A stretch of 64,000 nt of DNA, from positions 53,250 to 117,249 of the forward strand of contig CADBAY010000006.1 in assembly GCA_902792815.1 (NCBI GenBank), given 5' to 3'. Every line of letters begins with the position of its first letter. Position 1 is the stretch's first letter. Positions 7,264-59,815 of this stretch are shown here, piece after piece. The notes under the pieces were generated by a model. That model was not told the origin of the DNA. It did not search any database and saw only the letters and a list, made by a program, of their open reading frames with translations. Made by a program: the position numbers and the translations under genes. This DNA comes from an uncultured Bacteroidia bacterium (GTDB lineage: Bacteria > Bacteroidota > Bacteroidia > Bacteroidales > UBA932).

Positions 7264-9951
7264 ATGAAGAAGAATCTGTTGATATGCTTGGGGATTGTGC
7301 TGGGTTTCCTGGTACTTTCGTACGCATTTGTGCCCGAGGTGCTGGAAGGTAAGGTTGTCAACCAGGGAGATATCTCCGGCTGGCAGGGAATGGCTCACGA
7401 AAAGATCAGCTGGGACAAGGCGCACCCAGGGGAGAGCGCGGCCTGGACCGGCTCCATGTTCAGCGGCATGCCCACCGCATCCATCCAGAGTTCCACCAAA
7501 GGCGACTGGACGCAGCCCCTCTATGACTTGCTGCTCACCGGCAAGCGCCCCGCTACATATCTGTTCATATCGCTCCTGGGAGCATTCCTTATGTTCCTGG
7601 CTTTCGGTGTGCACCCTCTGGTAGCGGCCGGCGGCGCCATAGCCGTCACGTTCTGCTCCTACAATATCCAGATCATACAAGTCGGCCACAACACCAAGAT
7701 GCAGGCCCTCTCATTCCTGCCTTGGGTTTTTGCCGCCGTGGTGTTTACTTACCGTAAGGCCTGCGGGGCGGGCAGCGGTAGAATTCCAGTTGTCGGAAGT
7801 GCTTCCGCTGCGACTTTGGCTGCCGGCGGAGATGCCGCCGCCGCGACTTTGGCCCTTACGAACAGGAGCGGCGGTGGCATCTCCGCGGCAAATTCAGAGC
7901 CCCGAACTGCCGGGCCCCGCTGGCCAGAGGTAGTATTAGGCGCCGCCCTGTTCGGCCTTGCCGTAAGCTTCCAGGTCAAAGCCAACCACCCCCAGATATC
8001 CTACTATCTGGCCCTGATGATCCTGATCTACGTAGTAGTTCTCTTTGTGTCGCTACTGCGCCGCAAACAGTCCCTCAAAGGCTTCTGGATAGCATCTGCT
8101 CTACTGCTCGTAATGGGCCTCGCCGGCATAGGCACCAACGCCATCAAACTCCTTCCTACATGGGAATACACTCCATACTCGATGCGTGGCGGCACCTCCG
8201 CAGGCTCGTCCGAGGGTGCCCGCAAGGGGCTTGACATCGATTACGCCACCGCATGGTCATACGGATGGGAAGAACTCCCCAACCTGGCCATTCCCAATTA
8301 CAACGGCGGCTCTTCCTCGGGCCCGCTGAGTATGAAATCCGAGACCGTACAGTTGCTGCGCCGCGCCGGTCAGGGCAACCTCCAGCAAGTACGCAAGCAT
8401 CTTCCCCTCTACTGGGGACCCCAACCTTTCACCGCAGGCCCTATGTACATGGGCGCGGTCACTATCTTCCTGTTTATCCTTGGCTTGCTGTACTGGAAGG
8501 GCCGGGAGAAATGGTGGGCCGTGGCCGCATCGCTCCTGGCCGTGCTGCTGGCACTTGGCAGCCATTTCCTGTGGTTTACCAAGCTCTTCTACGATATTGC
8601 GCCGCTGTACAATAAGTTCCGTACCGTGTCCATGGCTCTGGTGGTGCTGCAGTTTACCCTTCCTGTGCTGGGATTCCTTATGCTTGATAAGATTGTGAGG
8701 AGCGGCGCGCCGTCCCGCGAACTGCGTAAGAAGGTGCTTGTCAGCGGAGGCATTTCGCTTGGGCTGCTGCTCGTTCTGGCTCTGCTTCAGAGTGTGCTGG
8801 GAACGTTCAGCGGCGGTGCCGATGCGGGGCAGCCGGATATTCTCCGCGAGGCCCTGGCGGCAGACCGTTATTCGTTGCTTTGGAGCGATACCCTTCGTTC
8901 GCTTCTGCTGGTGGCCGCTGCCGTGGCGCTGCTGGTCTGGGGCGTGTCCGGCGGTAGTGCCCGCGGCGTTAGTGCCCCCCTCGCTCCTGTTCGTAAGGGC
9001 CAAAGTCGCTCGGGGGACACTTCCGCCGATGCTCCCGTCAGCGGCAGGAGACTGGCTGCGGCTGTCTGCATCGGTGTGCTGGTGCTGGTTGACCTGTTTC
9101 TGGTGGGCAAACGATACCTGGGGCCGGACGACTTTGTGACACCCAAGGCCTTCAACAGCCAGTTCAACAAGCGTCCGGTTGACGAATTGATTCTTGCCGA
9201 CACCGACCCCTCGTACCGGGTGCTGGACCTTACGGTTAACGTTTTCAACGATTCTCACCCCTCCTATTGGCATAAGAATATCGGCGGATATTCACCCGCC
9301 AAGCTCCAGCGCTATCAGGAGTATATCGACAGGCAGCTGGCTCCGGATATCCAGACTCTTAGCAAAGCCATAAGCGGCGCCGCCACCGTGCAGGAAGCCG
9401 AGGCCGCACTGCCGTATCTGGAGAGTCTCGCTTCGCTTAACTGCCGCTATATCATCGTAGGAGAAGACAATCCCCCGCTGCGCTACAGTTTTGCCCGCGG
9501 CAACGCCTGGTTCGAGCAAACAAGCGATGATTCTATTGAGTTGACTTCTTACGCTCCGGACCGGCTGGAATATAGCTATACTTCATCTGAAGGCGGCCGG
9601 GCGGTGTTCAGCGAGGTTTATTATCCTGCCGGATGGGTGGCCCGCCTGGAAGACGGAACCGAGCTGCCCATTGAGCTTTATGAAGGATGTAAGATGGAGA
9701 TAGAACCCGGGCTTCAGCCTGCCGAAGGAGAGGTCATCAACGATATCTGCCGGCGCATAACCAAGTGGCCCGTAGCTTCGGACCTGCTGCGCTGCGTGGA
9801 CCTTCCTGCCGGATCGCACACCCTGGTTATGAGCTTCGAGCCGGCCTCCTACCGCCGCGGCGAGGCCCTCTCCCGCGCCAACTCAATCCTCCTCCTGCTC
9901 CTTGTCCTCGGTGCCATAGGCCTTAAAATCTTTCCTAAAAAACAGCAGTAA
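7264..9951 (+). CDS. YfhO-family polytopic membrane protein carrying two repeat insertions
   Basis: The 895-residue protein has a dozen or so membrane segments and a C-terminal soluble domain, as in the YfhO family. That family is thought to include lipid-linked sugar transferases for teichoic or glycan modification; its role in Bacteroidetes is not settled. Two stretches look foreign: about residues 168-218 (between TYRKA and WPEVVLGAAL) and about residues 562-598 (after LLVWGVSGG). Both fall in loops between helices, are Ala/Gly/Ser/Arg-rich and correspond to palindromic elements at 7822-7889 and 8964-9027. The frame is preserved through both. The stop overlaps the next start (TAATG). Confidence 0.88.
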   Translation: MKKNLLICLGIVLGFLVLSYAFVPEVLEGKVVNQGDISGWQGMAHEKISWDKAHPGESAAWTGSMFSGMPTASIQSSTKGDWTQPLYDLLLTGKRPATYLFISLLGAFLMFLAFGVHPLVAAGGAIAVTFCSYNIQIIQVGHNTKMQALSFLPWVFAAVVFTYRKACGAGSGRIPVVGSASAATLAAGGDAAAATLALTNRSGGGISAANSEPRTAGPRWPEVVLGAALFGLAVSFQVKANHPQISYYLALMILIYVVVLFVSLLRRKQSLKGFWIASALLLVMGLAGIGTNAIKLLPTWEYTPYSMRGGTSAGSSEGARKGLDIDYATAWSYGWEELPNLAIPNYNGGSSSGPLSMKSETVQLLRRAGQGNLQQVRKHLPLYWGPQPFTAGPMYMGAVTIFLFILGLLYWKGREKWWAVAASLLAVLLALGSHFLWFTKLFYDIAPLYNKFRTVSMALVVLQFTLPVLGFLMLDKIVRSGAPSRELRKKVLVSGGISLGLLLVLALLQSVLGTFSGGADAGQPDILREALAADRYSLLWSDTLRSLLLVAAAVALLVWGVSGGSARGVSAPLAPVRKGQSRSGDTSADAPVSGRRLAAAVCIGVLVLVDLFLVGKRYLGPDDFVTPKAFNSQFNKRPVDELILADTDPSYRVLDLTVNVFNDSHPSYWHKNIGGYSPAKLQRYQEYIDRQLAPDIQTLSKAISGAATVQEAEAALPYLESLASLNCRYIIVGEDNPPLRYSFARGNAWFEQTSDDSIELTSYAPDRLEYSYTSSEGGRAVFSEVYYPAGWVARLEDGTELPIELYEGCKMEIEPGLQPAEGEVINDICRRITKWPVASDLLRCVDLPAGSHTLVMSFEPASYRRGEALSRANSILLLLLVLGAIGLKIFPKKQQ
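7822..7889 (+). repeat. in-frame palindromic element A in the yfhO-like gene
   Basis: Arms 7822-7844 and 7868-7889 are nearly perfect inverted repeats (both contain CGGAGATGCC or its complement). They enclose a 24-nt core at 7845-7868 that starts GACTTTGGCCCTTACGAAC. The core is identical, in reverse orientation, to 8984-9007 in the same gene, and has 22 of 24 matches to 59353-59376. The arms share nothing with the arms at those sites. A partial duplicate of the core start (GCGACTTTGGC) lies at 7810-7820. Confidence 0.75.
8964..9027 (-). repeat. in-frame palindromic element B in the yfhO-like gene
   Basis: The core at 8984-9007 is the exact reverse complement of the element A core. The flanks 8964-8983 and 9008-9027 form an imperfect inverted repeat (CGGCG..AGTG.CCCC type) unrelated to the arms of A. 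The insertion encodes a short charged loop, VRKGQSRSG, between two membrane helices. Confidence 0.7.
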
Positions 9952-10295
9952 TGTCCGATAACGATTGGAAATCACGTCTGGGGGTGGTTTATTCCACCAA
10001 TCCTGACTTTCAATATCAGCAGGCCGCCGAAGAGGAGCCTGCCACACTGCCGCCGGAGCGGCAGAGGCTGATTGTGCGTATCGACCGCTCTCACCGTGCC
10101 GGCAAGCAGGTCACGCTGGTGGACGGCTTTGTGGGCACGGGGGATGATCTTGCCGCCCTTGCCAAAACCCTCAAAACCAAGTGCGGGGTCGGCGGTACGG
10201 CCAAGGACGGCCAGATTACCATCCAGGGAGACCTGCGTGACAAAGTTACTGCCCTCCTTCAATCTATGGGCTATAACGCCAAAAGAGGAAACTGA
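9951..10295 (+). CDS. SUI1/YciH-family translation factor homologue
   Basis: The 114-residue protein has a C-terminal SUI1 (eIF1-like) fold: RIDRSHRAGKQVTLVDGF, then TKCGVGGTAKDGQITIQGD with the typical basic Gly-rich loop. Bacterial homologues (YciH) are small cytoplasmic proteins that can influence start-site selection in vitro; their in vivo role is uncertain. It is coupled on both sides (TAATG and TGATG). Confidence 0.9.
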   Translation: MSDNDWKSRLGVVYSTNPDFQYQQAAEEEPATLPPERQRLIVRIDRSHRAGKQVTLVDGFVGTGDDLAALAKTLKTKCGVGGTAKDGQITIQGDLRDKVTALLQSMGYNAKRGN

Positions 10296-10999
10296 TGCCG
10301 GAGCTGTTCAAAGGAGGATTTCTGCATATGGCCACCGATCCTTTGGCCCAAAGCGGCGCGCCCCAGCTGTGGGCCGACTGCACCGTGAACCGCTGGGCCG
10401 TGGTGGTCGCCCTTATCCTCCTTATCATAGAACTGTCCGAAATACTCCGCATTTATCCTCATCTGCTCCGCTGCCTGAGCCGCTGGAAAGGCAATGCCGA
10501 CCTTGAGCACAGCGTGAGCCTCGCCCGCACCCGAAATACCGTAGCCTTCGTGTTCGGTATTATTTTCTGCATCATCGCCGACCGTTGCGGCCTCGTGGCC
10601 CCTACATTCAAACTCCGTCTTCCGCCCGGCTGGCAGCTCGCCGTAACCACCGGCCTGATTGCCGGCGCCACCCTTATAAGACGCATCGCTTACTTGTGCT
10701 CCAAGTTCCGCAGCAGCACAAGCGAGTATGCCATGACCGTACGCCACTCAATTTATAACTACCTGATTCTTTTAACCACGCTGATTTTTTTAAGCGTGCT
10801 CGTGATGGTGCCTCTTCACGCCCCCGACACGCTTGCAAGGGCTGTTTTGTATGCCGAATGCGCCGTTTTCTTCTTGCTGTTCCTCATAAGGCAAGGACAA
10901 ATTTTGCGCTCACGTTGCGGTACTTTGGCAACAATTTTGTATCTTTGCGCCCTTGAAATTTTGCCGGTAGGCATACTGATATTTGCGTGTACACTATGA
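10295..10999 (+). CDS. DUF4271-type membrane protein
   Basis: The 234-residue protein has about six hydrophobic helices. Position directly before hemD, then rnpA and yidD, is the conserved Bacteroidetes location of DUF4271 proteins, and the size and helix count fit. No function is established. It overlaps the hemD start by 4 nt. Assignment rests partly on context. Confidence 0.7.
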   Translation: MPELFKGGFLHMATDPLAQSGAPQLWADCTVNRWAVVVALILLIIELSEILRIYPHLLRCLSRWKGNADLEHSVSLARTRNTVAFVFGIIFCIIADRCGLVAPTFKLRLPPGWQLAVTTGLIAGATLIRRIAYLCSKFRSSTSEYAMTVRHSIYNYLILLTTLIFLSVLVMVPLHAPDTLARAVLYAECAVFFLLFLIRQGQILRSRCGTLATILYLCALEILPVGILIFACTL

Positions 11000-11739: not shown

Positions 11740-11741
11740 CA

Positions 11742-12083
11742 TTGACCAGAAGCGAGAGGCTGCGCGGCAAGACCACGATAGCCACTCTTATGAACAAAGG
11801 CCGGTGGAGGTCGACCCTCCATCTGAGATGTTGCTGCCTTTCGTCTAACGGCTTGGAGATCAACCGTATAATGGTGTCGGTGCCCAAGCGTCACTTCAAA
11901 CGCGCCGTCAAGCGCAATCTTCTCAAAAGACGCATGCGCGAGGCTTACCGCCTGAACAAAGAACTCGCAGGAGCAGGCGGTCACGACATGCTTTTCGTTT
12001 ACAACTCTCCGGAGATTGTCCCTTACGCCGACATCTGCGAAGAACTCAAGTCCCTCCTGAGCAGCATAGCAGCCGAGCGATGA
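11742..12083 (+). CDS. rnpA: ribonuclease P protein component
   Basis: The 113-residue basic protein holds the RnpA signature [18 protein letters not shown] (the RNR motif) at about residues 53-70, preceded by [10 protein letters not shown]. It assists the RNA subunit in removing tRNA 5' leaders. The start appears to be TTG at 11742, since no ATG lies upstream in frame before the hemD stop. It overlaps yidD by 4 nt, the usual gene order. Confidence 0.93.
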
Positions 12084-12319
12084 AGGTCACGGACATCATA
12101 AAGCGGGTGCTCTCGGCGCCGTTCATTCTGCTGATCCATTTCTACCGGTTCTGCATATCGCCGTTCACGCCTCCCAGCTGCCGCTTCACTCCTACCTGCT
12201 CGCAGTACGCCCTTGAGGCCTTCCGCAAGTATGGCCCCTTCAAAGGCGGCTGGCTTGCCCTCAAGCGTATCCTCCGCTGCCACCCTTGGGGCGGCTCCGG
12301 CTATGACCCCGTACCGTAA
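12080..12319 (+). CDS. yidD: membrane protein insertion efficiency factor YidD
   Basis: The 79-residue protein carries the YidD hallmarks [15 protein letters not shown] and [19 protein letters not shown], with an N-terminal amphipathic/hydrophobic segment. It is a peripheral inner-membrane protein that assists YidC-dependent insertion. It follows rnpA with a 4-nt overlap. Confidence 0.96.
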
Positions 12320-32637: not shown

Positions 32638-32709
32638 GGGAGGGTTACCGTCAAAAAGGGCCTAATTTGACGGTGACCATCCCAAGTTTTGTATGGTTAC
32701 CTACAGGCA
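32638..32709 (-). repeat. RAYT 2 flanking palindrome, copy 1
   Basis: GGGAGGGTTACCGTCAAA (32638-32655) pairs with 32666-32683 with two mismatches around a 10-nt loop. The first 37 nt are identical to 33693-33729. Similarity continues to a CAGGC..CTA end that abuts the RAYT 2 stop codon. Confidence 0.8.
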
Positions 32710-32712: not shown

Positions 32713-33570
32713 CTACAACTTGTTTAGCATTTCTGTGACTTTTTCATATGGAATGCCCGATACGCGGCTAATTTGGTGGACATCAGCTCCGAATCGCCAT
32801 CTAAGTTGTTTGAGTGCCTCTGCTTTTTCATCGTTACTGAGGTCGCCGAAAGTTTTTTTCTTGAAAATAGATTGACACAAGTCTTCGAGCGATCCGCTAA
32901 GAATCTGGTCCCTGAATGCAACACCTTCCAGATTTCGGTTTCTTTTTGCTTTTGAAGAAGAGTTGAGATGGTATAGCATCCGGGCGGGTGTTTTGAAAAC
33001 CTTTTCAACTATATCTATTCTTACATAAGATTCTGGAAGTACATAACCTTCAGAACCAATAATCCAGTCACCCGGAAGAGCGGTTTCGCTGTGAACCAGG
33101 CGGCTGACTGCTCTCGCCGAGAAGGAACTTATTGGTTTGCCGGATTCTTTTTTATCATTGAAATAACACGATCCGCTGCCCCATCTGTATCCCGAGGGGG
33201 TGAGGCAAATCTTTGCAGCCACACTGTTCATTAATATATAAGCTACAACCCTCTCAAAGCCCTCATTTTCCAGGTCGATTTCACGGATATCCACATCGTT
33301 TCTACGCAGAAACCTAACCTCCCCGTATTTTTTACGGCAGTAAGAAGAGTATAGTTTTTTAAAATAATCAATGAACTTTCTCGCTTCTTTGATGTTCCAG
33401 CACATAAGGAAAAAATGTACGTGGTTGGACATCAAGATAAAGGCGATTACATCAATTTTAAGAGCTGCTGCAGTGACTGCAACGTAGTTCATTCCGACGC
33501 GGAAGTCCTCTTCGTCCCTAAACCAGATCTTTGTCTCAAGATGGTCGGTTGTTACAAAATAAAATTTCAT
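32713..33570 (-). CDS. REP-associated tyrosine transposase (RAYT 2, Y1/HUH family)
   Basis: The 285-residue protein is a divergent paralogue of RAYT 1 with the same motifs: SNHVHFFL (His50, His52) and presumed catalytic Tyr111 in RVVAYILMNSVA. It also keeps YRWGSGSCYFND and the C-terminal helix-turn-helix-like segment DVHQISRVSGIPYEKVTEML. The gene sits between two nearly identical palindromes (32638-32709, 33693-33763), unlike in sequence to those of RAYT 1. Base composition is more AT-rich than its neighbours, consistent with transfer. It has a full promoter of its own (33612-33643) and an intact frame. Confidence 0.9.
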   Translation of the reverse strand: MKFYFVTTDHLETKIWFRDEEDFRVGMNYVAVTAAALKIDVIAFILMSNHVHFFLMCWNIKEARKFIDYFKKLYSSYCRKKYGEVRFLRRNDVDIREIDLENEGFERVVAYILMNSVAAKICLTPSGYRWGSGSCYFNDKKESGKPISSFSARAVSRLVHSETALPGDWIIGSEGYVLPESYVRIDIVEKVFKTPARMLYHLNSSSKAKRNRNLEGVAFRDQILSGSLEDLCQSIFKKKTFGDLSNDEKAEALKQLRWRFGADVHQISRVSGIPYEKVTEMLNKL

Positions 33571-33643: not shown

Positions 33644-33692
33644 TAAAACGTTCAGGTGATGAAACATACGTGTCGGTGACATGACATAAGGT

Positions 33693-33763
33693 GGGAGGGT
33701 TACCGTCAAAAAGGGCCTAATTTGACGGTAACCCTCCCAGGTAATGTACGGTCGCCTGCAGGC
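33693..33763 (-). repeat. RAYT 2 flanking palindrome, copy 2 (also after aspA stop)
   Basis: A perfect 18-bp inverted repeat, GGGAGGGTTACCGTCAAA (33693-33710) and its complement (33721-33738), with a 10-nt loop. It directly follows the aspA stop on the transcribed strand and could end aspA transcripts, although no T-run follows. Confidence 0.8.
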
Positions 33764-35272: not shown

Positions 35273-36205
35273 ATGAAAAAGATTTTAGTATCCATTGCGG
35301 CCCTCTTTGCCGCGGCCGCCATGCTGTCAGCCCAGAACATGTCTGAGGCAACCGAAACAGCCAAGCTGGCCAACGAGTCGCTTTCTGCAGGTAACTATGA
35401 GACTGCGCTCGCCGGCTTCCAAGAGGCTCTCAAGATGGCTGAGGCCTGCGGAGACGAAGGTCTTGAGCTGGTAGCAACTTGCAAAGAAATTATCCCCAAG
35501 ACAGTTAACGCTATTGCCAAGCAGCTCCTCCAGGAGGACAACCTTGACGGTGCAATCGCCAAGTTCGGCGAGGCTGTAGCAATCGCAAATGAATATGGCG
35601 ACGAAGAGACCGCAGCCAAGGCTGCCGCGCTCATTCCTCAGGTTTATATGAAGAAGGGCGGCACTCTCATCAACGCCAAAGACTTCGCCGCAGCCGCCGA
35701 GGCTTATGCCAAGGTGCTCGAGCTCGATCCTGCCAACGGCAATGCCGCCATCCGCTATGGCCAGTGCCTGGAGAACTCCGGCAAGGGCGAGGAAGCCGTC
35801 GAGGCTTACAAGCTTGCCGCTGCCAACGGCCAGGAGAAGAACGCAAATGCCCTGCTGGGCAAGTTCTATCTCAAGCGTTCGGTCGATGAGCTCAAGGCCA
35901 AGAAGTATGCAGATGCTGTTAAGGACGCCAACGAGAGCAATTCCTACACCCCCAACGCCCAGTGCCTCCAGATTGCAGGCCAGGCTTCCCAGCTCGCAGG
36001 CAAGAACAACGACGCTATCAACTACTTCGAGCAGTATCTCGAGGCAGCTCCCAACGCCAAGAACGCCGGCCAGGTAGCTTACACCGTAGGCGCCCTGTAT
36101 CAGCAGGCCAAGAACAACGCCAAGGCTAAGGAGTTCTTCGCCAAGGCAGTTAACGATCCTAAGTACGGAGCCGACGCCAAGAAGGCTCTCGCCGCACTCA
36201 AGTAA
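35273..36205 (+). CDS. exported TPR-repeat protein
   Basis: The 310-residue protein has a signal peptide (MKKILVSIAALFAAAAMLSAQ) and is otherwise built of helical tetratricopeptide-like repeats, e.g. AGNYETALAGFQEALKMA, KDFAAAAEAYAKVLELDPAN and KNNDAINYFEQYLEAAPN. It should be a periplasmic scaffold. The Ala/Lys/Asn-rich composition and strongly biased codons (AAG, GAG, GCC) suggest high expression. ATG 35273 is chosen because it opens the signal peptide. The stop overlaps the U32 start (TAATG). Confidence 0.85.
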   Translation: MKKILVSIAALFAAAAMLSAQNMSEATETAKLANESLSAGNYETALAGFQEALKMAEACGDEGLELVATCKEIIPKTVNAIAKQLLQEDNLDGAIAKFGEAVAIANEYGDEETAAKAAALIPQVYMKKGGTLINAKDFAAAAEAYAKVLELDPANGNAAIRYGQCLENSGKGEEAVEAYKLAAANGQEKNANALLGKFYLKRSVDELKAKKYADAVKDANESNSYTPNAQCLQIAGQASQLAGKNNDAINYFEQYLEAAPNAKNAGQVAYTVGALYQQAKNNAKAKEFFAKAVNDPKYGADAKKALAALK

Positions 36206-38001
36206 TGTTGGAGCTGGAGCTACTTTCTCCGGCAAAAGATAAGGCTGTCGGCATCGCGGCAATAGACTGCGGTGCCGATGCCGTTTACATTGCAGGTCCC
36301 GGCTGGGGCAACCGTAAGGCTGCCGGCAACAGCATTGACGATATAAGGGAACTCTGCACTTATGCGCACCGGTTCGGCGTGCGTATTTATCTGACAGTCA
36401 ATACTATCATCTACCCCGACGAGTGGCCCGCCGTGCATTCCATGATGCTTGAGGCCCAGGACGCCGGGGTCGATGCGTTTATCATCCGGGAGGAGCGCCT
36501 GTTAAGTCTCCCGGACATCAGGGTGCCGATGCACGCCTCCACCCAGTGCGCCATCCGCACGCCCGAGGCGGCGCGCCGCTTCGAAGCTCTCGGATGCAGC
36601 CGCATCATACTCGAGCGGGCGCTAAGCCTGCAGGAGGTCCGCGCCATACGCGAGGCGGTCAGCTGTGAACTTGAGTTCTTCGTGCACGGAGCCCTGTGCG
36701 TGTGCTACAGCGGCGACTGCCGCCTGTCGGAGTATCTGGACGGGCGGAGCGCCGACAGGGGCGACTGTATCCAGGCCTGCCGTTCCCTTTATGACTTGGT
36801 AGATGAGAGCGGACGTACGCTTGTGCGCGGCCGGGCTTTGCTCTCGATGCGCGATTTCAAGCTCCTCGACCGCCTGGAAGATCTTGCCGGGGCCGGAATA
36901 TGCTCATTCAAAATCGAAGGACGGCTCAAGAGCGCCTCGTACGTTAAGAACGTGGTGCGCGAGTACAGCCTGGCACTTGATGCGCTTGTGGCAAAACATC
37001 CCGGAGAGTACCGCAGGGCCTCGTTCGGCAAGGTTAGCGGCGGCTTCACGCCCAATTCCGACCTCACCTTCAACCGCGGCTACACCCAGTGGTGGCTCGA
37101 CGGCGTGAGGGGTCGCTGGTCGTCGATGGATACTGCCAATGGTGAGTTCGTAGGCGAAGTGCAGGCCGTGCGCCCTTCCGGCGGGGGGTTGATGTTAACG
37201 CTCAAGCCTGCCGGCGCCGGCTTGCAACTATCCAACGGAGACGGATTCGCTTTTTTCGAGCCCGGGCGCGGTGTGACCGGCTTCAGGGCCGACCGCTGCG
37301 AGGGTCGGCAAATCTTCTGCAAACGGGTGGATGGCCTGCGTGCCGGCGTGCGCCTGTACCGGAACATCAATGCCGCTTTCGAGCGGGAGCTTGAGTCGGG
37401 GAGTCCACGGCGTGAGATCGGCGTCGATGTGGACGTGGCCGTAAGCGGCTCGTTCGTAATTGAACTGAAGGCCGAGACGGAAGACGGACGCTGCGTGGTA
37501 AGCCGTTTCAACGCCGATGTAGACAAAGCCGAGAACCGCGAGCGCAGCGAGGCTATGCTCCGCGAGCAGCTTTCCAAGCGCAGCGGCGTTTACGCCTTTA
37601 AGGTGCGGTCGGTCAGCGCTCCCGGCGCCCTTCCGCTGCTCAGTGCCGGCACCATCAATTCCATGCGGCGCCTGCTTGCAGAGGATATAGATTCTTACGT
37701 CGGGCTTCGCCCTCCTCAGAATGACAAAGGGACAGCCGTCCCGTCGGGTTCTGCAGCCGTCCAGGCCGATTCTTCTGCCGTGCCGTCAGGCACTTCTGTC
37801 ATTTCGAGCGAGCGAAGCGAGCCGAGAAATCTCCCCGCCGAACTGATGCGCACGCGCTACTGCATAAAGTACGAATTGGGCCTTTGCCCGCGCCACCAGA
37901 AGGCAAAGCCCACCGGCGCCCTGTTCCTTGTCAACAACGGACGGCGCCTTGCTCTCGGCTTCGACTGCGCCAAGTGCGAAATGACCGTTAAAGCGGCCTG
38001 A
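36205..38001 (+). CDS. U32-family peptidase/tRNA-hydroxylation-type protein with repeat insertion
   Basis: The 598-residue protein has the U32 N-terminal barrel (ELLSPAKDKAVGIAAIDCGADAVYIAGP, HGALCVCYSGDCRLSE, IQACRSLYDL, FKIEGRLKSASYVKNVVREY) and the Cys residues that bind an iron-sulfur cluster in TrhP/YhbU-type members, which take part in RNA 5-hydroxylation. The C-terminus has the RTRYCIKYELGLC and CAKCEM cysteines. Between RLLAEDIDSY and LMRTRYC about 45 residues of low-complexity Ser/Ala/Pro (about 501-545) do not fit the family and correspond to a repeat element at 37700-37838. The frame is intact. Confidence 0.85.
   Translation: MLELELLSPAKDKAVGIAAIDCGADAVYIAGPGWGNRKAAGNSIDDIRELCTYAHRFGVRIYLTVNTIIYPDEWPAVHSMMLEAQDAGVDAFIIREERLLSLPDIRVPMHASTQCAIRTPEAARRFEALGCSRIILERALSLQEVRAIREAVSCELEFFVHGALCVCYSGDCRLSEYLDGRSADRGDCIQACRSLYDLVDESGRTLVRGRALLSMRDFKLLDRLEDLAGAGICSFKIEGRLKSASYVKNVVREYSLALDALVAKHPGEYRRASFGKVSGGFTPNSDLTFNRGYTQWWLDGVRGRWSSMDTANGEFVGEVQAVRPSGGGLMLTLKPAGAGLQLSNGDGFAFFEPGRGVTGFRADRCEGRQIFCKRVDGLRAGVRLYRNINAAFERELESGSPRREIGVDVDVAVSGSFVIELKAETEDGRCVVSRFNADVDKAENRERSEAMLREQLSKRSGVYAFKVRSVSAPGALPLLSAGTINSMRRLLAEDIDSYVGLRPPQNDKGTAVPSGSAAVQADSSAVPSGTSVISSERSEPRNLPAELMRTRYCIKYELGLCPRHQKAKPTGALFLVNNGRRLALGFDCAKCEMTVKAA
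37700..37838 (+). repeat. in-frame REP-like element in the U32 peptidase gene
   Basis: It starts with CTCAGAATGACAAAGG and ends with TGTCATTTCGAGCGAGCGAA followed by GCGAGCCGAGAAATCTCC. AATGACA and TGTCATT are the inverted ends commonly seen in bacterial REP/MITE-like repeats. Internal hairpins are GGGAC/GTCCC (37729-37742) and GTGCC-GTCA-GGCAC (37780-37793). The GTCA-looped hairpin also occurs in the trmB element. The GAGCGAAGCGA-type motif also recurs in queH and trmB elements. Confidence 0.7.
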
Positions 38002-43694: not shown

Positions 43695-44540
43695 TTACAA
43701 ATGTTTAGAGAATTCGCAGCCGCAGAAGTCCTGGTTGTAGAAATTCTGCTCTTTGATAATTTCGGAGCGGCGGGGCTGGAGGCCGCCTTTGCGCCAGTTT
43801 TGGGGCCACCAGTGAACTGGTGTCCCTGGTCTAATCCCCCTGCACCCCCAGGGGACGGGGGAAGGTTCCCCCGGAACCCCCTCTGTCGCTTCGCTCCGAA
43901 CCGTTGGCCCCAAAACTGGCGCTGAAGCGCCTTCCGATCCCCCTGCGCCCCCAGGGGATTGAGGGGAGGGCCCCTCAAACACCCCCGGTCGGGCCGAGCC
44001 CTCCGAGGCCACCGCTGGCCCCAAAACTGGCGCTGAAGCGCTTTCCGATCCCCCTGCGCCCTCAGGGGATTGAGGGGAGGCCGAGCAGACCCAGGAGCCG
44101 GCCTCATCGACCTGCTCGAGACTCTTCCAGCGTGAAGAGGCAAGGGTAGTGGTCAGCACCGGAATATGGTTTTGGGCTGCATACCGTGCCGCCCTCATCA
44201 GGCGGAATTTAAAGCAACGCAAGCACCTGGGGCCGCGTTCGGGAGCAGCCGCCAGTTCTTCTTTGGTCAGACCTTCGCTCTCATCAAGAACAAATCGCAG
44301 CCAAGCCTGATGGTCGTATTCATCTTCCACCAGCTCAACGCCGAGAGCCTTGCAGTACCGCCGGAGTTCACCGAGCCTTAATTCGTATTCTTCGAAGGGA
44401 ACTATATTCGAGTTACTGAAAAACACCACAGGGCGTATGTCATTGGCCACCATGCACTCCAGAACAGCGCCCGAACAAGGCGCACAGCAGCTGTGCAACA
44501 ACACTTTGGATTCACCTCCGGGAACTTCTAACTTCAGCAT
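43695..44540 (-). CDS. queH: epoxyqueuosine reductase QueH with a long repeat insertion
   Basis: The 281-residue protein carries the QueH cysteines: HSCCAPCSG near the N-terminus, CLRCF at about 110 and CGCEF at the C-terminus. It would reduce epoxyqueuosine to queuosine in tRNA. Between SRWKSLEQVDEAG (to about residue 149) and PQNWRKGGLQPRR (from about 249) lie some 95 residues of Ser/Pro/Gly-rich repeats in place of the short loop usual in this family, whose members are around 180-200 residues. All motifs are intact on both sides and the frame is open, so the gene may still work with a surface insertion. Start ATG 44540. Confidence 0.88.
   Translation of the reverse strand: MLKLEVPGGESKVLLHSCCAPCSGAVLECMVANDIRPVVFFSNSNIVPFEEYELRLGELRRYCKALGVELVEDEYDHQAWLRFVLDESEGLTKEELAAAPERGPRCLRCFKFRLMRAARYAAQNHIPVLTTTLASSRWKSLEQVDEAGSWVCSASPQSPEGAGGSESASAPVLGPAVASEGSARPGVFEGPSPQSPGGAGGSEGASAPVLGPTVRSEATEGVPGEPSPVPWGCRGIRPGTPVHWWPQNWRKGGLQPRRSEIIKEQNFYNQDFCGCEFSKHL
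43791..44105 (-). repeat. tandem palindromic elements inside queH with inverted host-gene copies
   Basis: Three copies of a core ATCCCCCTGC(A/G)CCC(C/T)CAGGGGA start at 43834, 43937 and 44048. The host segment 43791-43808, which codes for the conserved QNWR motif, recurs as its exact 18-nt reverse complement TGGCCCCAAAACTGGCGC at 43905-43922 and 44016-44033. Each inverted copy is followed by TGAAGCGC, forming a GGCGC-TGAA-GCGC(C) hairpin. A fourth related element lies at 46034-46146. Confidence 0.8.
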
Positions 44541-44704: not shown

Positions 44705-44740
44705 GAGGCAAGTTCGAAAGAGCTTGCCTCTTTTATTTTT
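44705..44740 (+). terminator. terminator after tRNA-Leu
   Basis: GAGGCAAG (44705-44712) pairs with CTTGCCTC (44723-44730) around a 10-nt loop and is followed by TTTTATTTTT. It overlaps the 3' end of the convergent trmB by a few bases. Confidence 0.8.
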
Positions 44741-45845
44741 CTTTAAGTTTCTGGCGGCGGGTCTCGGCGGTGTCGCGGCCGAAAAGGGTCCGGTGACCTT
44801 CTACGCTCCGCCAGTAGTCCGGATCAAAATCTGTCGGACTCACAAAGCTCCTCCCGTGTGCAGAAGGCTCCTTTTTGCCCCCGGCGCCGTCGGAAACCAC
44901 CTCCCCGTGTGCAGGAAGGCCCGTTTTGCCCCCGGCGCCGTCGGAAACCACCTCCCCGTGTGCAGAAAGGCCCGATTTGCCCCCGGCTCCGTCGGAAACC
45001 ACCGTCCCGTGTGCAGAAGGCCCCATTTTGCCCCCCGTTTCGGCTCCGGAGACCCCGGGGGCGGGAGACCGTAGCCGCCCGTGGCTACGTGAACGGGAGG
45101 GGCCCGCGCCGTCAGGCGTGGGAGGGATGAGCGAAGCGAAGTCTTCCGCCCCCGGGACCTCCGAGAGTCGGAAGCAGAGATACTTTATGGGATACCCCTG
45201 CTCACGGAACATGTGCTCGTAAAAAGTCTGAACCTGCGTCAGGCAAGGATCAAAGCGCTCCGCCTCGGCATACAAATTTTCAGAACAAGCCACAATTTCC
45301 AGCGAGTTGGCCCGGCAAACCGCCAGGGTGTATTGATAAAGGAACTGCGAATCGGTCTTGAGATGCACCAGCCCGCCCGGAGCAAGAAATTTAGAGTATC
45401 TTTCCAGAAAAACGGGCGACGTAAGGCGGGAATTCTCGCTCCGCACCTGCGGGTCGGAGAAAGTAAGCCAGATTTCCGAAACTTCCCCCGGAGCGAAGAA
45501 AGCCGTGATGAACTCGATACGCGTTCTCAGGAAACCGACATTGCCCAGGGCGTGCTGTGTGGCGTATTTAGCCCCTTTCCATAGCCTCGCGCCCTTGATG
45601 TCCACGCCAACGTAGTTCTTGCCGGGGTCTCGCAGGGCAAGATCGATGGTGTACTCGCCCTTGCCGCAGCCCAACTCCAGCACCAGCGGCGCACCGGCAC
45701 TCTCAAACCTCTCGCCCCAATGCCCCTTTACCTCGTGGTCCCGAAGGGCGAAATACCCGTTGGCGAGAAGCTCCTGAGCCGATGGCTGCAGCAGGCAGGA
45801 AAACGTCTCGTTCTCTGCAAACTTCCGTAATTTATCGTGTCCCAT
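44733..45845 (-). CDS. trmB: tRNA (guanine-N7-)-methyltransferase with repeat-derived insertion
   Basis: The 370-residue protein is much longer than the usual 220-255 residues. The core is TrmB: SAM-binding LELGCGKGEYTIDLA, VGVDIKGARLWKGA, then EIWLTFSDPQ and HLKTDS. It forms m7G46 in tRNA. The motif after FSDPQ reads VRSENSRLTSP, less basic than usual. About residues 240-333 are inserted, containing a palindromic element (45044-45167) followed by 17-residue tandem repeats of the type GGK.GLSAHGEVVSDGA. The normal-looking tail TDFDPDYWRSVEGHR follows. Frame intact. Its leader holds another element (45861-45999). Confidence 0.88.
   Translation of the reverse strand: MGHDKLRKFAENETFSCLLQPSAQELLANGYFALRDHEVKGHWGERFESAGAPLVLELGCGKGEYTIDLALRDPGKNYVGVDIKGARLWKGAKYATQHALGNVGFLRTRIEFITAFFAPGEVSEIWLTFSDPQVRSENSRLTSPVFLERYSKFLAPGGLVHLKTDSQFLYQYTLAVCRANSLEIVACSENLYAEAERFDPCLTQVQTFYEHMFREQGYPIKYLCFRLSEVPGAEDFASLIPPTPDGAGPSRSRSHGRLRSPAPGVSGAETGGKMGPSAHGTVVSDGAGGKSGLSAHGEVVSDGAGGKTGLPAHGEVVSDGAGGKKEPSAHGRSFVSPTDFDPDYWRSVEGHRTLFGRDTAETRRQKLKEK
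44856..45040 (-). repeat. 51-nt tandem repeat, about 3.6 copies, coding within trmB
   Basis: Units start at 44856, 44907 and 44958, each exactly 51 nt, with a partial fourth from 45009. Each begins GTGTGCAG(A/G)A and contains CGGAAACCACC; they differ at only a few positions. On the coding strand each encodes 17 residues, so copy number can change without frameshift. Confidence 0.9.
45044..45167 (+). repeat. in-frame palindromic element in trmB
   Basis: Outer arms 45044-45069 and 45141-45167 form an imperfect inverted repeat of about 26 bp around CCCGGGGGCGG. Inner part: GTAGCC-GCCCGT-GGCTAC hairpin (45071-45088), GTGAACGGGAGGGGCCCG, a CGCC-GTCA-GGCG hairpin, then TGGGAGGGATGAGCGAAGCG. The inner part matches 45895-45967 with paired changes in the stems; the outer arms do not match. 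Confidence 0.75.
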
Positions 45846-45860: not shown

Positions 45861-45999
45861 TGCTGCCGGAAGGGATACCCGGACTAGGAAATCCGTGGCC
45901 GCCCGTGGCCACGTGAACGGGAGGGGCCCGGCCGAAGGCTGGGAGGGACGAGGACCGAAGGTCCGAAGGATTTCCAGTCCGGGTGCCCTTCCGGCAGCA
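45861..45999 (+). repeat. palindromic element (REPIN-like) in the trmB leader
   Basis: This occupies most of the left part of the 356-nt trmB-galE intergenic region. Outer arms 45861-45894 and 45968-45999 are near-perfect inverted repeats (TGCTGCCGGAAGGG... with CCCTTCCGGCAGCA). The interior holds three hairpins: GTGGCC/GGCCAC (45895-45912), GGCC-GAA-GGCT and GGACC-GAA-GGTCC. The interior is shared with the trmB element; the arms are site-specific. Confidence 0.75.
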
Positions 46000-46000: not shown

Positions 46001-46179
46001 AGCTACAAATGTACTAATTTTGTGTCTTCGCGCCAAGAGCAGTCGCTTGGATTTCTGGCGATAAGGTTGGCGGGAGCAGTTCGGAGCGGAGCGACAGAGG
46101 GGGAATCGGGGGACTCTTCCCCCGTCCCCCGGGGGTGCAGGGGGATAGCTACGAATGTACTAATTTTGTGTCTTCGCGC
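46001..46179 (+). repeat. palindromic element between 33-nt direct repeats, upstream of galE
   Basis: Direct repeats 46001-46033 and 46147-46179 differ at one position (AGCTAC(A/G)AATGTACTAA...). The 113-nt segment between them (46034-46146) contains, on the minus strand, the queH-type core (46125-46146) and the CGGAGCG(G)AGCGACAGAGGGGG motif shared with queH 43880-43900. The repeats abut the element exactly at its right end. This looks like insertion with target duplication. Confidence 0.75.
46006..46036 (-). promoter_or_regulatory. presumed trmB promoter (left copy of duplicated divergent promoter)
   Basis: On the minus strand: TTG (46036-46034), 20-nt spacer, TACATTTG (46013-46006). The matching box in the right copy is altered to TACATTCG. 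Transcription from here would put the 139-nt palindromic element in the trmB 5' leader. Confidence 0.5.
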
Positions 46180-46195
46180 AAAATTAGTACATTTG
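46154..46195 (+). promoter_or_regulatory. galE promoter within a perfect 14-bp palindrome
   Basis: TTTTG (46164-46168), 19-nt spacer, TACATTTG (46188-46195), ending 6 nt before the galE ATG. AATGTACTAATTTT (46154-46167) and its exact complement (46180-46193) flank a 12-nt centre, overlapping both promoter boxes. It could serve as an operator, or the symmetry may simply reflect back-to-back promoters. Confidence 0.65.
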
Positions 46196-56227: not shown

Positions 56228-56230
56228 ATC

Positions 56231-57181
56231 TTATACTTCTGTCCAGTGTATGCAGATGCCGCTGCGTTCCATTCCGCGGAACCATGTCATCTGGCGTTTT
56301 GCAAATTGGTGAATGGCTATAGAGAGGCGCTCGCGCATGGTGGAATAGTCCATCTGCCCGAGCAGGTAGAGGGTTACGAACTTGTACTCAAGTCCATAGC
56401 TTATAAGTGTTTGGGCTGGTATGCCTCGCTCCAGCAGACCACGTATCTCATCTATCATCCCCTCCTTCAGGCGGGCGTCAAGCCGGGCGTCTATGCGGGC
56501 GTTCCTGACTTCCCTGCTGACGAGGGTCCCAATGAAGTAGGTCCGCAGCGCCGTCCCGAGGGCGGAGGGCTCCCCTTCCGTTTCGTACAGGTCAAGGTCG
56601 GCTGCGCTGGGGTACGTGGTTACCGGAGAGGAGAGAGGCTTTTTGGTGAGGAAGTCGTAGCTGCAGGTTACTGCGCTGATGTACAGGCCGGTGCCTCCGC
56701 ACAGGAGGGGGAAGGCGCCGCGGCTGCGGATGTCTGCCATTGCGCGTGCGAAGTCTTGCTGGAAGCGGTACACGTTGTATTGTGTGCCGGGTTCGGCGAT
56801 GTCGATCAGGTGGTATGGTATCTCTCCGTATTCGCAGAGGTCCTTGCCTGTTCCGATGTCCATCCCCCGGTACACCTGCCTCGAGTCGGCGGAGATAATC
56901 TCGCACCGGACGGCGCCGGAAGGGCCCTGCGACCCCGGAGCGACCCTCCCCGCAAGCGGGTCCCCTCCCTCTTCGGGAGTCAAAGTCGCTCCGTGGGTGC
57001 CGGGCCCTTCAAGGCCAAGCTCCCGGGCGAGCTTGACGGCATATTTGGTCTTCCCCGACGCCGTGGGCCCCAACACGCATATCAAGTCAATCGAGCCTGA
57101 CAGGATGGCGTTGCGAAGCCCTTCGACATCGATTACCTCGGCCGAAGGCAACGCGGCGACTATGTTCTTAACTCTTTGCAT
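56231..57181 (-). CDS. miaA: tRNA dimethylallyltransferase with in-frame repeat insertion
   Basis: The 316-residue protein has the MiaA P-loop LGPTASGKTKYAVKLA near residue 37, EIISADSRQVYRGMDIGTGK (given in part: ISADSRQVYRG) and CGGTGLYISA. It adds dimethylallyl to A37 of tRNAs reading UNN codons. Between ARELG and EIISADSRQ, normally almost adjacent, there are about 36 extra residues (Gly/Pro/Ala/Thr-rich) encoded by a palindromic element at 56912-57016. The N-terminus is also longer than usual. The frame is intact, so the protein is probably made; activity is uncertain. Overlaps nth by 14 nt. Confidence 0.88.
   Translation of the reverse strand: MQRVKNIVAALPSAEVIDVEGLRNAILSGSIDLICVLGPTASGKTKYAVKLARELGLEGPGTHGATLTPEEGGDPLAGRVAPGSQGPSGAVRCEIISADSRQVYRGMDIGTGKDLCEYGEIPYHLIDIAEPGTQYNVYRFQQDFARAMADIRSRGAFPLLCGGTGLYISAVTCSYDFLTKKPLSSPVTTYPSAADLDLYETEGEPSALGTALRTYFIGTLVSREVRNARIDARLDARLKEGMIDEIRGLLERGIPAQTLISYGLEYKFVTLYLLGQMDYSTMRERLSIAIHQFAKRQMTWFRGMERSGICIHWTEV
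56912..57016 (-). repeat. in-frame palindromic element in miaA
   Basis: Arms 56912-56944 and 56985-57016 are inverted repeats (about 75% paired by eye, both ending in GGAGCGAC or its complement). They surround a 40-nt core with CCCGC/GCGGG and CTCCC/GGGAG hairpins. On the coding strand the core begins GAGCGACTTTG, as in the yfhO elements, and contains GGGAGGGG-ACCCG and GGGGAGGGTCG, resembling the trmB elements. Confidence 0.7.
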
Positions 57182-57809
57182 TGCGTGAAAAATAAGCGCA
57201 GAAGCCGCTCAGGCCGCACTCTGAGCATTTGGGAGCGCGGGCGGTGCAGACGTAGCGGCCATGCAGGATTAACCAATGATGCGATACGGCGCGGTCGGCC
57301 ACCGGGATGTGCTTCTCCAGGTCTTTTTCCACGTCATAGGGAGTCTTGCCGCGCGAAAGACCCAGCCTGTGGCTCACGCGGAATACGTGCGTATCCACCG
57401 CGATAACCGGCTCTTGAAACACGATCGACGCCACCACGTTGGCGGTCTTTCGTCCCACTCCGGGCAAGGTCATGAGCTCTTGTACCGTGCCGGGGACCTC
57501 CCCGCCAAAGTCGCTTAGGAGCTTCTCAGCCATTCCTTTAAGGTGCGCCGCCTTGCTGTTGGGATAGGACACGCTGCGTATGCACTCCAGAATGTCTTCT
57601 GTGGAGGCCGCTGCAAGATGCTTCACCGTGGGGAAGCGCCTGAACAGCTCCGGCGTGACCATATTTACCCTCTTGTCGGTGCACTGGGCCGACAGTATCA
57701 CCGACACAATGAGCTGGTAGGGGTCGGCGAAGACCAGTTCGCTCTGCGCCACCGGCACGTTCTCCTTGAACCAGGCCACTATGGCCTCATATCGCTGTGC
57801 TTTAGTCAT
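57168..57809 (-). CDS. nth: endonuclease III
   Basis: The 213-residue helix-hairpin-helix glycosylase has the HhH segment LPGVGRKTANVV with catalytic Lys, the catalytic Asp in AVDTHVFRVSHRLG, and the four-Cys [4Fe-4S] loop C-x6-C-x2-C-x5-C at the C-terminus. It removes oxidised pyrimidines and nicks abasic sites. It sits in an overlapping minus-strand run with miaA downstream. Confidence 0.97.
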   Translation of the reverse strand: MTKAQRYEAIVAWFKENVPVAQSELVFADPYQLIVSVILSAQCTDKRVNMVTPELFRRFPTVKHLAAASTEDILECIRSVSYPNSKAAHLKGMAEKLLSDFGGEVPGTVQELMTLPGVGRKTANVVASIVFQEPVIAVDTHVFRVSHRLGLSRGKTPYDVEKDLEKHIPVADRAVSHHWLILHGRYVCTARAPKCSECGLSGFCAYFSRNAKS

Positions 57810-58599
57810 AATCGTTCAATATATCGCCAAGCAGGGCGCGGAGCCTCTCGCCGAATGCAATAGGGCCGTTTGTATTGTTCTTATGCACCAGGAAGGCGTT
57901 TCTTTCGCGGTTTCCCATCAGGGTGTAATCAAGGGCGATACCGCCGCCCAGAATGCCTGAAATCCAGTATCCGCCCACCAGATTGGCCACGATGATCCCG
58001 ACCGAAGCGGCGTTTAGCCCTGCGGAAAGCAGTCCCTCGCCGTATGCCTCGTTGTAAAAATGGGCGAGCGGCGGCACGAACGAAAGTACCGTGGCGGTTT
58101 TTTCCGATTTTACCCTCGGGTGACCTTCATAAAACTTCAGCAGTTCTCCAAGCCTCGGGTTGGTTCCGTTGAAGCTGATGCAGCGTGCGGCATAAATCTC
58201 CGACTCGTCGTAGCGTCCGCAGTAGGCGAGCGCAAGGGCGTGAAGCAGCAGAACGTCCTGAGATACAGGTTCCACTTCCTCGACCATGGCTGCAGCCTGC
58301 TCGAATTCTCCGCCCATAAACCTGCAAAGCTCCTGCTGGAAAAGCACTTCCTGCCTCTCCTCGGGGGTAAGGGCGAACATCCTTATGCGGGCGAGGGTGG
58401 ATGATGCTTCGGCATAGCGTCCAAGGGCCTTGTAGCAGCGGGCCTTTCCAATCAGGGCAGCATTCGCTTCCTCCAGGGAAGCCCCGGAGTAAACGGCCCG
58501 CTCGTATTCTACGGCGAGTCCTTCCAAGTCCTGCGCCCTACTTGAATACAGAGCGGAGAGGAATATGGATATTATACAGAACAGCCGTATCCTGAGCAT
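57802..58599 (-). CDS. exported TPR-like protein with C-terminal membrane region
   Basis: The 265-residue protein has a signal peptide, about 130 residues of TPR-like helices and, after VLSFVPPLAHFYNEAYGEG, two hydrophobic segments. It resembles in layout the neighbouring 58538-59815 product (helical repeats followed by a PGSG/GKIYAGK-type membrane segment), so the two may work together. Function unknown. It overlaps nth by 8 nt and the upstream gene by 62 nt. Confidence 0.65.
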   Translation of the reverse strand: MLRIRLFCIISIFLSALYSSRAQDLEGLAVEYERAVYSGASLEEANAALIGKARCYKALGRYAEASSTLARIRMFALTPEERQEVLFQQELCRFMGGEFEQAAAMVEEVEPVSQDVLLLHALALAYCGRYDESEIYAARCISFNGTNPRLGELLKFYEGHPRVKSEKTATVLSFVPPLAHFYNEAYGEGLLSAGLNAASVGIIVANLVGGYWISGILGGGIALDYTLMGNRERNAFLVHKNNTNGPIAFGERLRALLGDILNDYD

Positions 58600-59815
58600 C
58601 TTTAAGGTTTGAATTATAAATACTTACCGACATGTAACTGCCGTATATGTTGCCTATGTACAGGAACGCTCCCAGCAGTCCCGGTACTATTGTTTTCCAA
58701 TTGGCGGGCCCGTCTTTGACCCAGTGTTCCGCGGTGATGGCGCCAAATACTCCGGTGAGCAGGAAGGCCGATATTCCCTCGCCCAGTTTGCCGGCGTAGA
58801 TCTTTCCGGAGCCTGGGATTATTGCCGAGGCTATGGCTGCTAATGCTGGGCTTTTGGCGCGTTTGACATAGCGGGAGTTGTATATATCGCAAAGTGTATG
58901 TTCTGCTTCCTGAAGGGCAAAGTCGCTGAATCCGAAACTTTGGCTGGCCTGTTTGAATGCGGCCGGATCGTCCCTCAAGAGGGCGAGGCCGGAGAGTTGA
59001 AGGTCGCGCAGTTCCGTGTGGGGGCCGTTGTAGCCCGTAAGGCTTGCCACGGGGGTGCTGAAGTCGCCCAGATGGGCGGAGACTGCGGTGGAGTAGAAGA
59101 GGGACTGATCGTAGAAACTTGACCCCTTAGGTATCCCCTGGAAATACTCCCTGGCCTGGGGGAGTTGCTTCAGGTTGTAATGGGCCCAGCCGAGGAGGAA
59201 TGTGAGGGTGTCGGAGGGGGTAAAGCAGGGGGACGATACGAGCCGGAGGGCGTCGCGCTTCAGGTCGTTGTCTATCAGGTAGAGCGCAAAGTCGTAGTCG
59301 GCTGCAATGCTCCTGAATTCTGCCTGGCAGCCTCCTGAAACATGCTGGAGCCGACCTTGGCCCTTACGAACGGGAGGCTCCAGCATGTTCCAGGAGACTG
59401 CTGTGCCGGAATCTGTTGCGGCGGCCACGGTCGGTACTTTAATAGCACCGGAATATGCTTCGGGCCCTTCTTCGATTCCGCGGGGCGGACGGGGGAGGCT
59501 ATAATCGGCGGTGCCTATCTTGGAGGCTCTCAGAAGCCTGTCCGAAGTGGCAAGAATGCCGCGAACCGGGCCTATTTCCCTTACTGCTTGCCGCAGGAAC
59601 AGCACGTTGGGCGGGTTGTAGTAATTGTGCCCCAGAAGCTGGCGCCCTATGGTGATGGCGGCCTTTTCAACGCCGTTGGCGCCCTCGGGAAACGGTTCCC
59701 TGACAAGCAGGGAGTCGAAGTCTGCCTGCAGCATAAGAGTCCTGTCCTGCTGGGCGCAAAGTGGCATCGAGGCCAGCAGCATCAGGCATGCGGCAGCTAT
59801 GAGAGGCCTGTTCAT
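58538..59815 (-). CDS. exported TPR/DUF5683-like protein with repeat insertion
   Basis: The 425-residue protein has a signal peptide, TPR-like helices, and a C-terminal SAIIPGSGKIYAGKLGEGISAFLLTG segment, the 'PGxGxxYxG' hydrophobic motif of DUF5683/TM2-like envelope proteins (cited in part as IPGSGKIYAGK). About residues 98-167 are Pro/Gly/Arg-rich and contain the palindromic element at 59333-59395. The function is unknown. It is coupled to the LolA-like gene upstream by 4 nt. Confidence 0.65.
   Translation of the reverse strand: MNRPLIAAACLMLLASMPLCAQQDRTLMLQADFDSLLVREPFPEGANGVEKAAITIGRQLLGHNYYNPPNVLFLRQAVREIGPVRGILATSDRLLRASKIGTADYSLPRPPRGIEEGPEAYSGAIKVPTVAAATDSGTAVSWNMLEPPVRKGQGRLQHVSGGCQAEFRSIAADYDFALYLIDNDLKRDALRLVSSPCFTPSDTLTFLLGWAHYNLKQLPQAREYFQGIPKGSSFYDQSLFYSTAVSAHLGDFSTPVASLTGYNGPHTELRDLQLSGLALLRDDPAAFKQASQSFGFSDFALQEAEHTLCDIYNSRYVKRAKSPALAAIASAIIPGSGKIYAGKLGEGISAFLLTGVFGAITAEHWVKDGPANWKTIVPGLLGAFLYIGNIYGSYMSVSIYNSNLKDAQDTAVLYNIHIPLRSVFK
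59333..59395 (+). repeat. in-frame palindromic element C at 59.4 kb
   Basis: Arms TCCTGAAACATGCTGGAGCC (59333-59352) and 59376-59395 pair at 19 of 20 positions. The core 59353-59376 starts GACCTTGGCCCTTACGAAC and matches the yfhO cores at 22 of 24 positions. The arms are unrelated to those in yfhO. Confidence 0.8.

Follow-up and report, generated by a model that had tools for sequence, protein, structure and literature searches.

The subject of this study is a 64,000-nucleotide stretch of DNA (hereafter the window) from an uncultured Bacteroidia bacterium (Bacteroidales, UBA932; assembly GCA_902792815.1, contig CADBAY010000006.1, positions 53,250 to 117,249 of the forward strand), in which several conserved genes carry GC-rich palindromic elements in frame. 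The elements belong mainly to three core families, here called A (~23 nt), M (~43 nt) and B (~70 nt), which recur across the genome between inverted-repeat arms that mostly differ from copy to copy. The reading that we consider probable, albeit without great confidence, is that structured GC-rich cores (A, M, B and their relatives) are dispersed through the genome, that each lies in a private inverted repeat maintained by replication template switching, and that the structure of the element acts as DNA and not as a strand-specific RNA.

The genome of the window (G000; 2.37 Mb, 97% complete, 48 contigs) was analysed together with a comparison set of 121 genomes of the same genus, evenly drawn from a larger group and all of them draft assemblies. 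The original prediction had called for a search for further copies of the cores, and a pattern search found them throughout G000 (7 A, 2 M and 23 B, 32 in total), with the backward patterns used as a control giving one match for A and none for M or B. Among the 121 genomes, B was present in 72, M in 24 (62 copies) and A in 8 (36 copies). Hairpins scoring at least 15 numbered 18 in 385 kb of G000 versus zero in each of three Markov-1 controls, and A- or B-type loops were found in 9 of these 18 (manual count). The cores are highly conserved, as 42 nt of the M core are identical in G000, G026, G046 and G047, of which G046 and G047 differ from G000 by 15–25% over the aligned host region. The A core reads GACYYTGGCCCTTACGAACRGGA, one example of M is CCTCCCCGCAAGCGGGTCCCCTCCCTCTTCGGGAGTCAAA, and B is laid out as TACGGCC..TATCCCTCCC-hairpin-GGGCCCCTCCC..GGGCGGCCACG. 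All three apparently follow a common plan (an outer arm stem, TCCT or TCCCTCCC, an inner hairpin, GGGYCCC(C)TCCC, a second hairpin and a CCA-containing exit), of which A seems to be a short form; read by eye from the printed sequences, they are probably one superfamily, which agrees with the earlier suggestion of one superfamily or a few related ones. From its G-runs (GGGAGGGG...GGGAGGG), the core might fold into a quadruplex.

A scan of named genome contigs with the B pattern gave at least 120 stretches. Among the 80 matches listed, 63 were titled Bacteroidales, Bacteroidaceae, Bacteroidia or Cryptobacteroides (one of them Candidatus Cryptobacteroides caccocaballi) and 17 were others (manual count). 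Arms scoring at least 12 surrounded 42 of the 61 readable Bacteroidia matches and 2 of the 17 others among those listed, compared with 3 of 200 random positions, and a viral scan returned 61 stretches, with such arms at none of 71 readable matches. Both of the two others come from Microbacterium (loci L367 and L393); their cores are similar and their 16–18-nt arms unlike one another, which may point to a parallel family in Actinobacteria.

The constancy of the cores does not extend to the arms, a point that the original prediction did not make. An arm score of at least 12 was reached by 20 of the 23 B copies of G000, by 31 of the 36 A copies and by 45 of the M copies, of which there are at most 62. 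In these copies the arms, which were themselves selected by pairing, are 12–39 nt long and 92.6–95.1% paired. After the removal of likely orthologues (pairs with more than 18 of 30 positions identical; 0 B, 3 A and 9 M pairs, 12 in total), arm identity between copies was mostly 0.2–0.4, which is near random; this holds from the second base on in A and M, and after about ten bases in B. The B consensus fold, built from 66 sequences, has 26 pairs, 90.1% of them canonical, and all four Watson-Crick types occur at most arm pairs; since the arms were here too selected by pairing, the fold is a description and no proof. Three M copies in G136 illustrate the pattern, each with perfect 31-nt arms unrelated in sequence to those of the other two; at one locus, the nearest relative seen for G136 stood at ~83%.

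Arms and cores were also followed between G000 and G046 at orthologous sites. The orientation of the core relative to its flanks is opposite at 6 of 13 sites (miaA, trmB, L290, L291, L292 and L301) and the same at the other 7 (L287, L294, L297, L300, L302, L107 and TsaB). Left outside this count were sites at which the arrangements differ, namely the two in the yfhO-like gene (one opposite, one same) and the one in the 58538 gene (opposite, with three copies), whose inclusion would give 8 of 16, as well as L303 and L305 (unreadable) and GH92 (different families). In 12 aligned pairs (the 13 sites minus L294, with arm limits set by hand), 231 paired positions were unchanged, 50 had changed in both arms with pairing kept, 48 were one-sided or unpaired and 14 were gaps. 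Coordinated substitutions numbered 44 against 7.1 expected if the arms changed independently. L301 has 9 coordinated changes (8 of them substitutions) and no one-sided change, against flanks that are ~86% identical. A wholesale swap of the arm middle between G000 and G046 was ruled out, as the coordinated changes are interspersed in the alignment. Homogenisation of inverted-repeat arms together with inversion of the spacer has been attributed to template switching in yeast genes (PMC8604942), and the creation of hairpins by the same process has been described for RNA genes (PMC8794818).

The original prediction had placed in-frame palindromes at seven sites in named genes of the window, and every one of them is present, each within an open frame. 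The features are as follows.

7264..9951, + strand: open frame with two A cores and no Pfam match, called yfhO-like in the original prediction
7826..7886, + strand: A element in the yfhO-like gene, 19-nt arms with 1 mismatch, 23-nt core GACTTTGGCCCTTACGAACAGGA
8964..9028, − strand: second A element in the yfhO-like gene, on the opposite strand, 17-nt arms with 3 mismatches (coordinates counted manually)
32713..33570, − strand: Y1 transposase gene (Pfam 'Transposase IS200 like'), which we take to be of the RAYT type, candidate mobiliser
36205..38001, + strand: U32 peptidase gene (Pfam U32) with two small GTCATTYYGA-type hairpins
37689..37725, − strand: GTCATTCTGAGG-type hairpin in the U32 gene (end counted manually)
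37798..37832, + strand: GTCATTTCGAGC-type hairpin in the U32 gene, peptide VISSERSEPRNL (end counted manually)
43695..44540, − strand: queH gene (Pfam QueH; NCBIfam gives nothing)
43791–44034: span of the queH element (inverted copies and family C), open frame
43791..43807, − strand: queH coding segment WPQNWRKGG, presumed native and the template of the inverted copies
43834..43901, − strand: family C element within the queH hairpin loop; the G046 loop has none
43906..43922, + strand: inverted copy of queH 43791–43807; another copy lies near 44018–44034
44733..45845, − strand: trmB gene with an elongated C-terminal region (Pfam and NCBIfam TrmB)
44853..45035, − strand: 51-nt (17-codon) tandem repeat in the trmB tail
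45047..45163, − strand: B element in trmB, core inverted in G046
45861..45999, − strand: B element upstream of trmB, same element and orientation in G046
46001..46182, strand unassigned: family C insertion between 36-nt direct repeats
56231..57181, − strand: miaA gene (Pfam MiaA; NCBIfam MiaA just below cut-off)
56919..57010, + strand: M element in miaA, inverted in G046, absent from G047, G004 and G011
58538..59815, − strand: gene carrying an A element, no Pfam match
59327..59401, + strand: A element in the 58538 gene, 26-nt arms with 2 mismatches

The earlier view that the elements share pieces across sites held in part: CTTTGGCCCTTACGAAC and GAACGGGAGGGG are indeed parts of the A and B cores, but the hairpins of the U32 gene are of a different, simpler type. 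Two of the sites proved more complex than had been described, with a tandem repeat in the trmB tail and, in queH, inverted copies of the gene's own coding sequence plus a family C element. The trmB tail of G046 is shorter and has no 51-nt tandem repeat. At the family C site 46001–46182, G046 has a single 36-mer and no insertion; the insertion is thus specific to G000, it lies in a promoter-like region, and 36 nt is an unusual length for the duplication. Another hairpin type of G000 (L006:18714, L020:2371 and L005:11952) has 21–30-nt arms, all different, around a 16–17-nt T/A-rich loop (TTTTTCCCAGGTTTTTT and variants).

At four sites (queH, GH92, RlmB and L301) an arm repeats, for part of its length, the adjoining host DNA in inverted form. 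Inverted copying of the host flank accounts for that part and does not account for the inner arm. In queH the WPQNWRKGG segment, which by its position beside the C-terminal YNQDFCGC stretch would be native, has adjacent inverted copies (17 nt, perfect in G046), and G000 adds the family C element in the intervening loop. GH92 of G046 has a left outer arm, GGTTTCGGAC, that complements the right flank GTCCGAAACC; this flank is identical in G000 and has one change in G026, and neither of these two genomes has the left copy. In RlmB of G000 a left TGTAGC, absent from G046, matches a right GCTACA, and at L301 the outer GACTA, common to G046, comprises the final codon and the beginning of the stop codon in a frame that stays open for 412 codons. 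In a search for capture from elsewhere, a 3.4-kb query with the L133 element gave six matches in its own genome, none of them a third copy of the arm, with 5 of 44 candidate regions scored.

Several sites that are occupied in G000 or G046 are empty in relatives. The miaA gene carries M in G000 and G046 and is uninterrupted in G047, G004 and G011. The assembly of G004 has two different miaA loci (L025 and L062) and may mix two strains or species. A text pattern caught 21 alleles of the UxaA loop, of which 13 are without insertion and the other 8 hold three A elements (antisense in G046, sense in G047 and G136), two VISSE-type hairpins and three other small hairpins (classes assigned by eye). 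At L291, an intergenic site, G000 and G046 have a B element, G047 has a hairpin that lacks the core, and G004, G011 and G026 have no insertion; L292, also intergenic, is empty in G004 and G026. The same loops are also used by different families: RsmE has B in G000 and A in G142; YgiQ has B in G089 and G008 and A in G136; GH92 has M in G000, A in G046 and both families in G026; and the loop of the 58538 gene, with A in G000, has three A copies in G046 and M in G004. It had been foreseen that insertions conserved across relatives would speak for ancestral loops, and this comparison divides the sites, as the RlmB insertion is ancestral (present in 11 of 16 genomes, see below) and miaA, UxaA and the two intergenic sites are empty in relatives.

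In G000, 16 of the 32 copies of A, M and B are genic and in frame, in 15 genes (manual count, from which the open frames across L287, L294, L295, L302 and L303 were excluded). The hosts are the yfhO-like gene (two copies), the 58538 gene, TsaB, AroD-AroA, IspE, MiaA, GH92, RlmB, RsmA, TilS, a histidine phosphatase (in which the element precedes the domain), TrmB, RsmE, an EamA transporter and AroE-AroK; RlmB, IspE and MiaA fall below the NCBIfam family cut-offs, yet with E-values of 1e−34 or better. The claim that the insertions fall at loops is borne out; in the AlphaFold2 model of MiaA (mean pLDDT 74.8), the insertion (residues 59–87) is placed between the helix 44–56 and the strand 93–97, and pLDDT drops below 50 at residues 1–7, 59–87 and 199–204. 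Most likely, the inserted peptides are tolerated passengers. The idea that the cores are designed to be stop-free was rejected, their open-frame counts being not above those of shuffles, and the in-frame copies would thus be what selection left.

An excess of tRNA-modifying hosts had been hinted at, and it holds for G000, where 7 of the 15 hosts modify tRNA or rRNA (TsaB, MiaA, RlmB, RsmA, TilS, TrmB and RsmE); for the hosts outside the window the figure is 5 of 11. If the background is set at 40 modification genes in 2000 (an assumption and not a count in G000), the hypergeometric values are 4e−9 for all hosts and 1e−6 outside the window, and with 60 assumed they are 8e−8 and 8e−6; the out-of-window value is the fairer one because the window suggested the category. 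The hint did not carry over to other genomes, where a scan of 20 B-bearing frames found a family in 12 (two of these from G000) and the recognised hosts were RibF (2), YgiQ (2), MurB, an alanine-racemase-like protein, a radical SAM protein, AroB and a THUMP-like protein, as well as an S46 peptidase in G046. We take gene names such as YgiQ and AroB from their domains. The excess is therefore not general.

We propose the following sequence of events. Cores would spread through the genome by some mobiliser; polymerase template switching at a hairpin would then copy the flank in inverted form, so that one arm consists partly of host sequence and the opposite arm of its reverse complement, as seen at some sites; later switches would keep the arms matched and flip the core between them, as seen between species; and genic copies would persist where whole codons are added at a loop or linker, an outcome that is seen and that selection may explain. 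A bolder version, which we hold to be doubtful, is a new mode of transposition in which a small fork-stalling core inserts without arms and writes them from the target by template switching, giving private palindromes, flips and repeated landing in the same permissive loops.

A number of observations weigh against the template-switching proposal. One-sided changes are overall as frequent as coordinated ones, the excess of the latter lies in few loci, and no coordinated change was seen at L292, L297, L300 or trmB; the arm limits, moreover, were set by hand for the alignment or chosen by pairing for the identity and fold figures. Recognisably similar arms were seen in six M copies, five of them from G143 and one from G090, which means that arms sometimes travel with the core. 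Both arms are largely missing from the empty alleles of miaA and UxaA, and inverted copying of the present flank thus explains only part of an arm. For the same reason, arms as a pure inverted duplication of the present target were rejected as a complete explanation, although this holds for segments at queH, RlmB, GH92, L301 and perhaps UxaA. At a single place in the RlmB linker, 11 of 16 genomes have a B-type element, with one inverted and one degenerate case among them, so that the insertion there is ancestral and inherited; the remaining five genomes (classified partly by eye) have a REPIN-like pair (G144), two VISSE-type hairpins (G088), small hairpins (G113 and G095) or nothing (G035). 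No mobiliser was identified for A, M or B, and inspection by eye found no clean target-site duplication at their flanks. MITEs have terminal inverted repeats common to their copies and a target-site duplication; here the arms are not common to copies, and direct repeats (36 nt) were found with family C at one site. Finally, the genomes are draft assemblies in which contig-end fold-backs exist.

In an alternative explanation, the elements are REP/REPIN-like and are moved by resident Y1 tyrosine transposases (RAYTs) through single-strand transposition, their variable arms being drifted stems. RAYT relatives are common (103 of 121 genomes, with 8 matches in G000), and a match is present in 69 of 72 B-positive versus 34 of 49 B-negative genomes (Fisher P = 1.1e−4, uncorrected for relatedness and completeness) and in all 8 A-positive genomes (not significant); the co-occurrence with B raises the odds of this alternative and slightly lowers those of template switching. 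At 19 of 30 loci, RAYT genes are accompanied by their own hairpins. However, these adjacent hairpins have sequences other than A, M or B, and none of the three cores occurs in the 30 RAYT loci taken from among all matches (~1.5 kb on each side where available). In G129, the distance between a B copy and a RAYT is 486 nt. M is not associated with RAYTs, as 19 of 24 M-positive genomes have a match and five (G013, G029, G040, G090 and G131) have none, though other Y1 groups may be missed; in the M neighbourhoods of G013 no gene was recognised as a transposase by inspection, and no family search was made there. Taken together, we judge this alternative unlikely, while a RAYT could be the missing mobiliser within the template-switching proposal. 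In the RlmB linker, REPIN-like paired hairpins stand in frame in G144 (L529), G026 (L536) and G142 (L537), in the last two next to B, so that RAYT-type palindromes may enter coding sequence too in this genus. The hairpins that flank the RAYT of the window (32638–32683 and 33692–33739) have a loop that is inverted between G000 and G046, like the A, M and B cores.

The three other explanations fare less well. If the insertions were ordinary variable loops, products of slippage and local template switching in which no mobile core takes part, this would account for the inverted duplication of its own sequence in queH and for the inherited insertions of RlmB, but it is contradicted by the same cores at 32 places in G000 and by the identical 42-nt M core across diverged hosts, and we regard it as improbable. 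That B is a structured RNA, cis-regulatory or catalytic, with stem covariation due to RNA function, agrees with its consensus fold (whose arms were pre-chosen by pairing) and is nevertheless highly improbable, as the cores flip within orthologous sites, the 8 genic B copies lie on both strands of the host frame (5 sense, 3 antisense; manual count), and only tRNA reached the Rfam gathering score in the window, in a searched stretch that includes two B elements. An origin of the palindromes in assembly or amplification is hardly credible: orthologous elements have the same arms in separate assemblies (L292 and L300), the arms elsewhere end at 12–39 nt and the frames are open. In its favour are two B elements of G047 (L338 and L339) near contig ends with inverted arms of at least 60 nt, which are probably assembly fold-backs.

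Palindromes in frame within genes are already known (PMC3733652), and the parallel with Rickettsia palindromic elements (RPE-1 and others) that had been drawn at the outset is supported as a working comparison. RPE copies have a sequence in common over the whole palindrome, arms included. Compared by description and not by sequence, the elements of this study are likewise short palindromic repeats present in many copies (the 32 of G000) and in frame within genes, but they differ from RPEs in occurring in another order, the Bacteroidales, and in their constant core, private arms and flipping cores. To name Rickettsia as the known parallel was too narrow, since intragenic REPs (GTAG/CGTC) are also in frame within genes of several bacteria, DNA polymerase I among them, and repeats of the CGTC type have been reported from Bacteroidetes as well (Di Nocera et al. 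2013, PMC3733652). A putative PolA frame of G047 (read by eye) carries an A element (L103). As outlined in the same source, REPs are 20–40 bp long with a tag at one end, whereas the arms here are unrelated between copies and the core is branched. Matched changes in two arms, inverted spacers and new stems also characterise the template-switch products reported in two papers, which are local mutations in yeast genes and RNA genes (PMC8604942, PMC8794818), while here the process would act on a dispersed multi-copy core. Perfect inverted repeats within protein-coding genes are known from the mitochondria of Nematomorpha, an animal case whose abstract opening does not mention a dispersed core (PMC6649704). 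Systems of RAYTs and REPINs combine palindromes and Y1 transposases in the same genomes (PMC3116915, PMC2817692), and B is commoner in genomes with RAYTs, but the hairpins beside RAYT genes are here not A, M or B. In the open-licence literature, covered by titles and abstract openings for part of the matching papers, we found no description of the Bacteroidales families, of private arms, of flipping cores or of the reuse of protein loops, and within this scope these are what is new.

The elements carry a warning, in that loops in conserved proteins, and the stem covariation on which RNA calls are based, can stem from a DNA mutation process. They extend in-frame palindromic DNA to the Bacteroidales and provide, between close species, many natural replicates of arm matching, core inversion and loop reuse. 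Two questions can thereby be put to the test, namely how genes survive the spread of palindromes within them and how both sides of a stem come to change at once.

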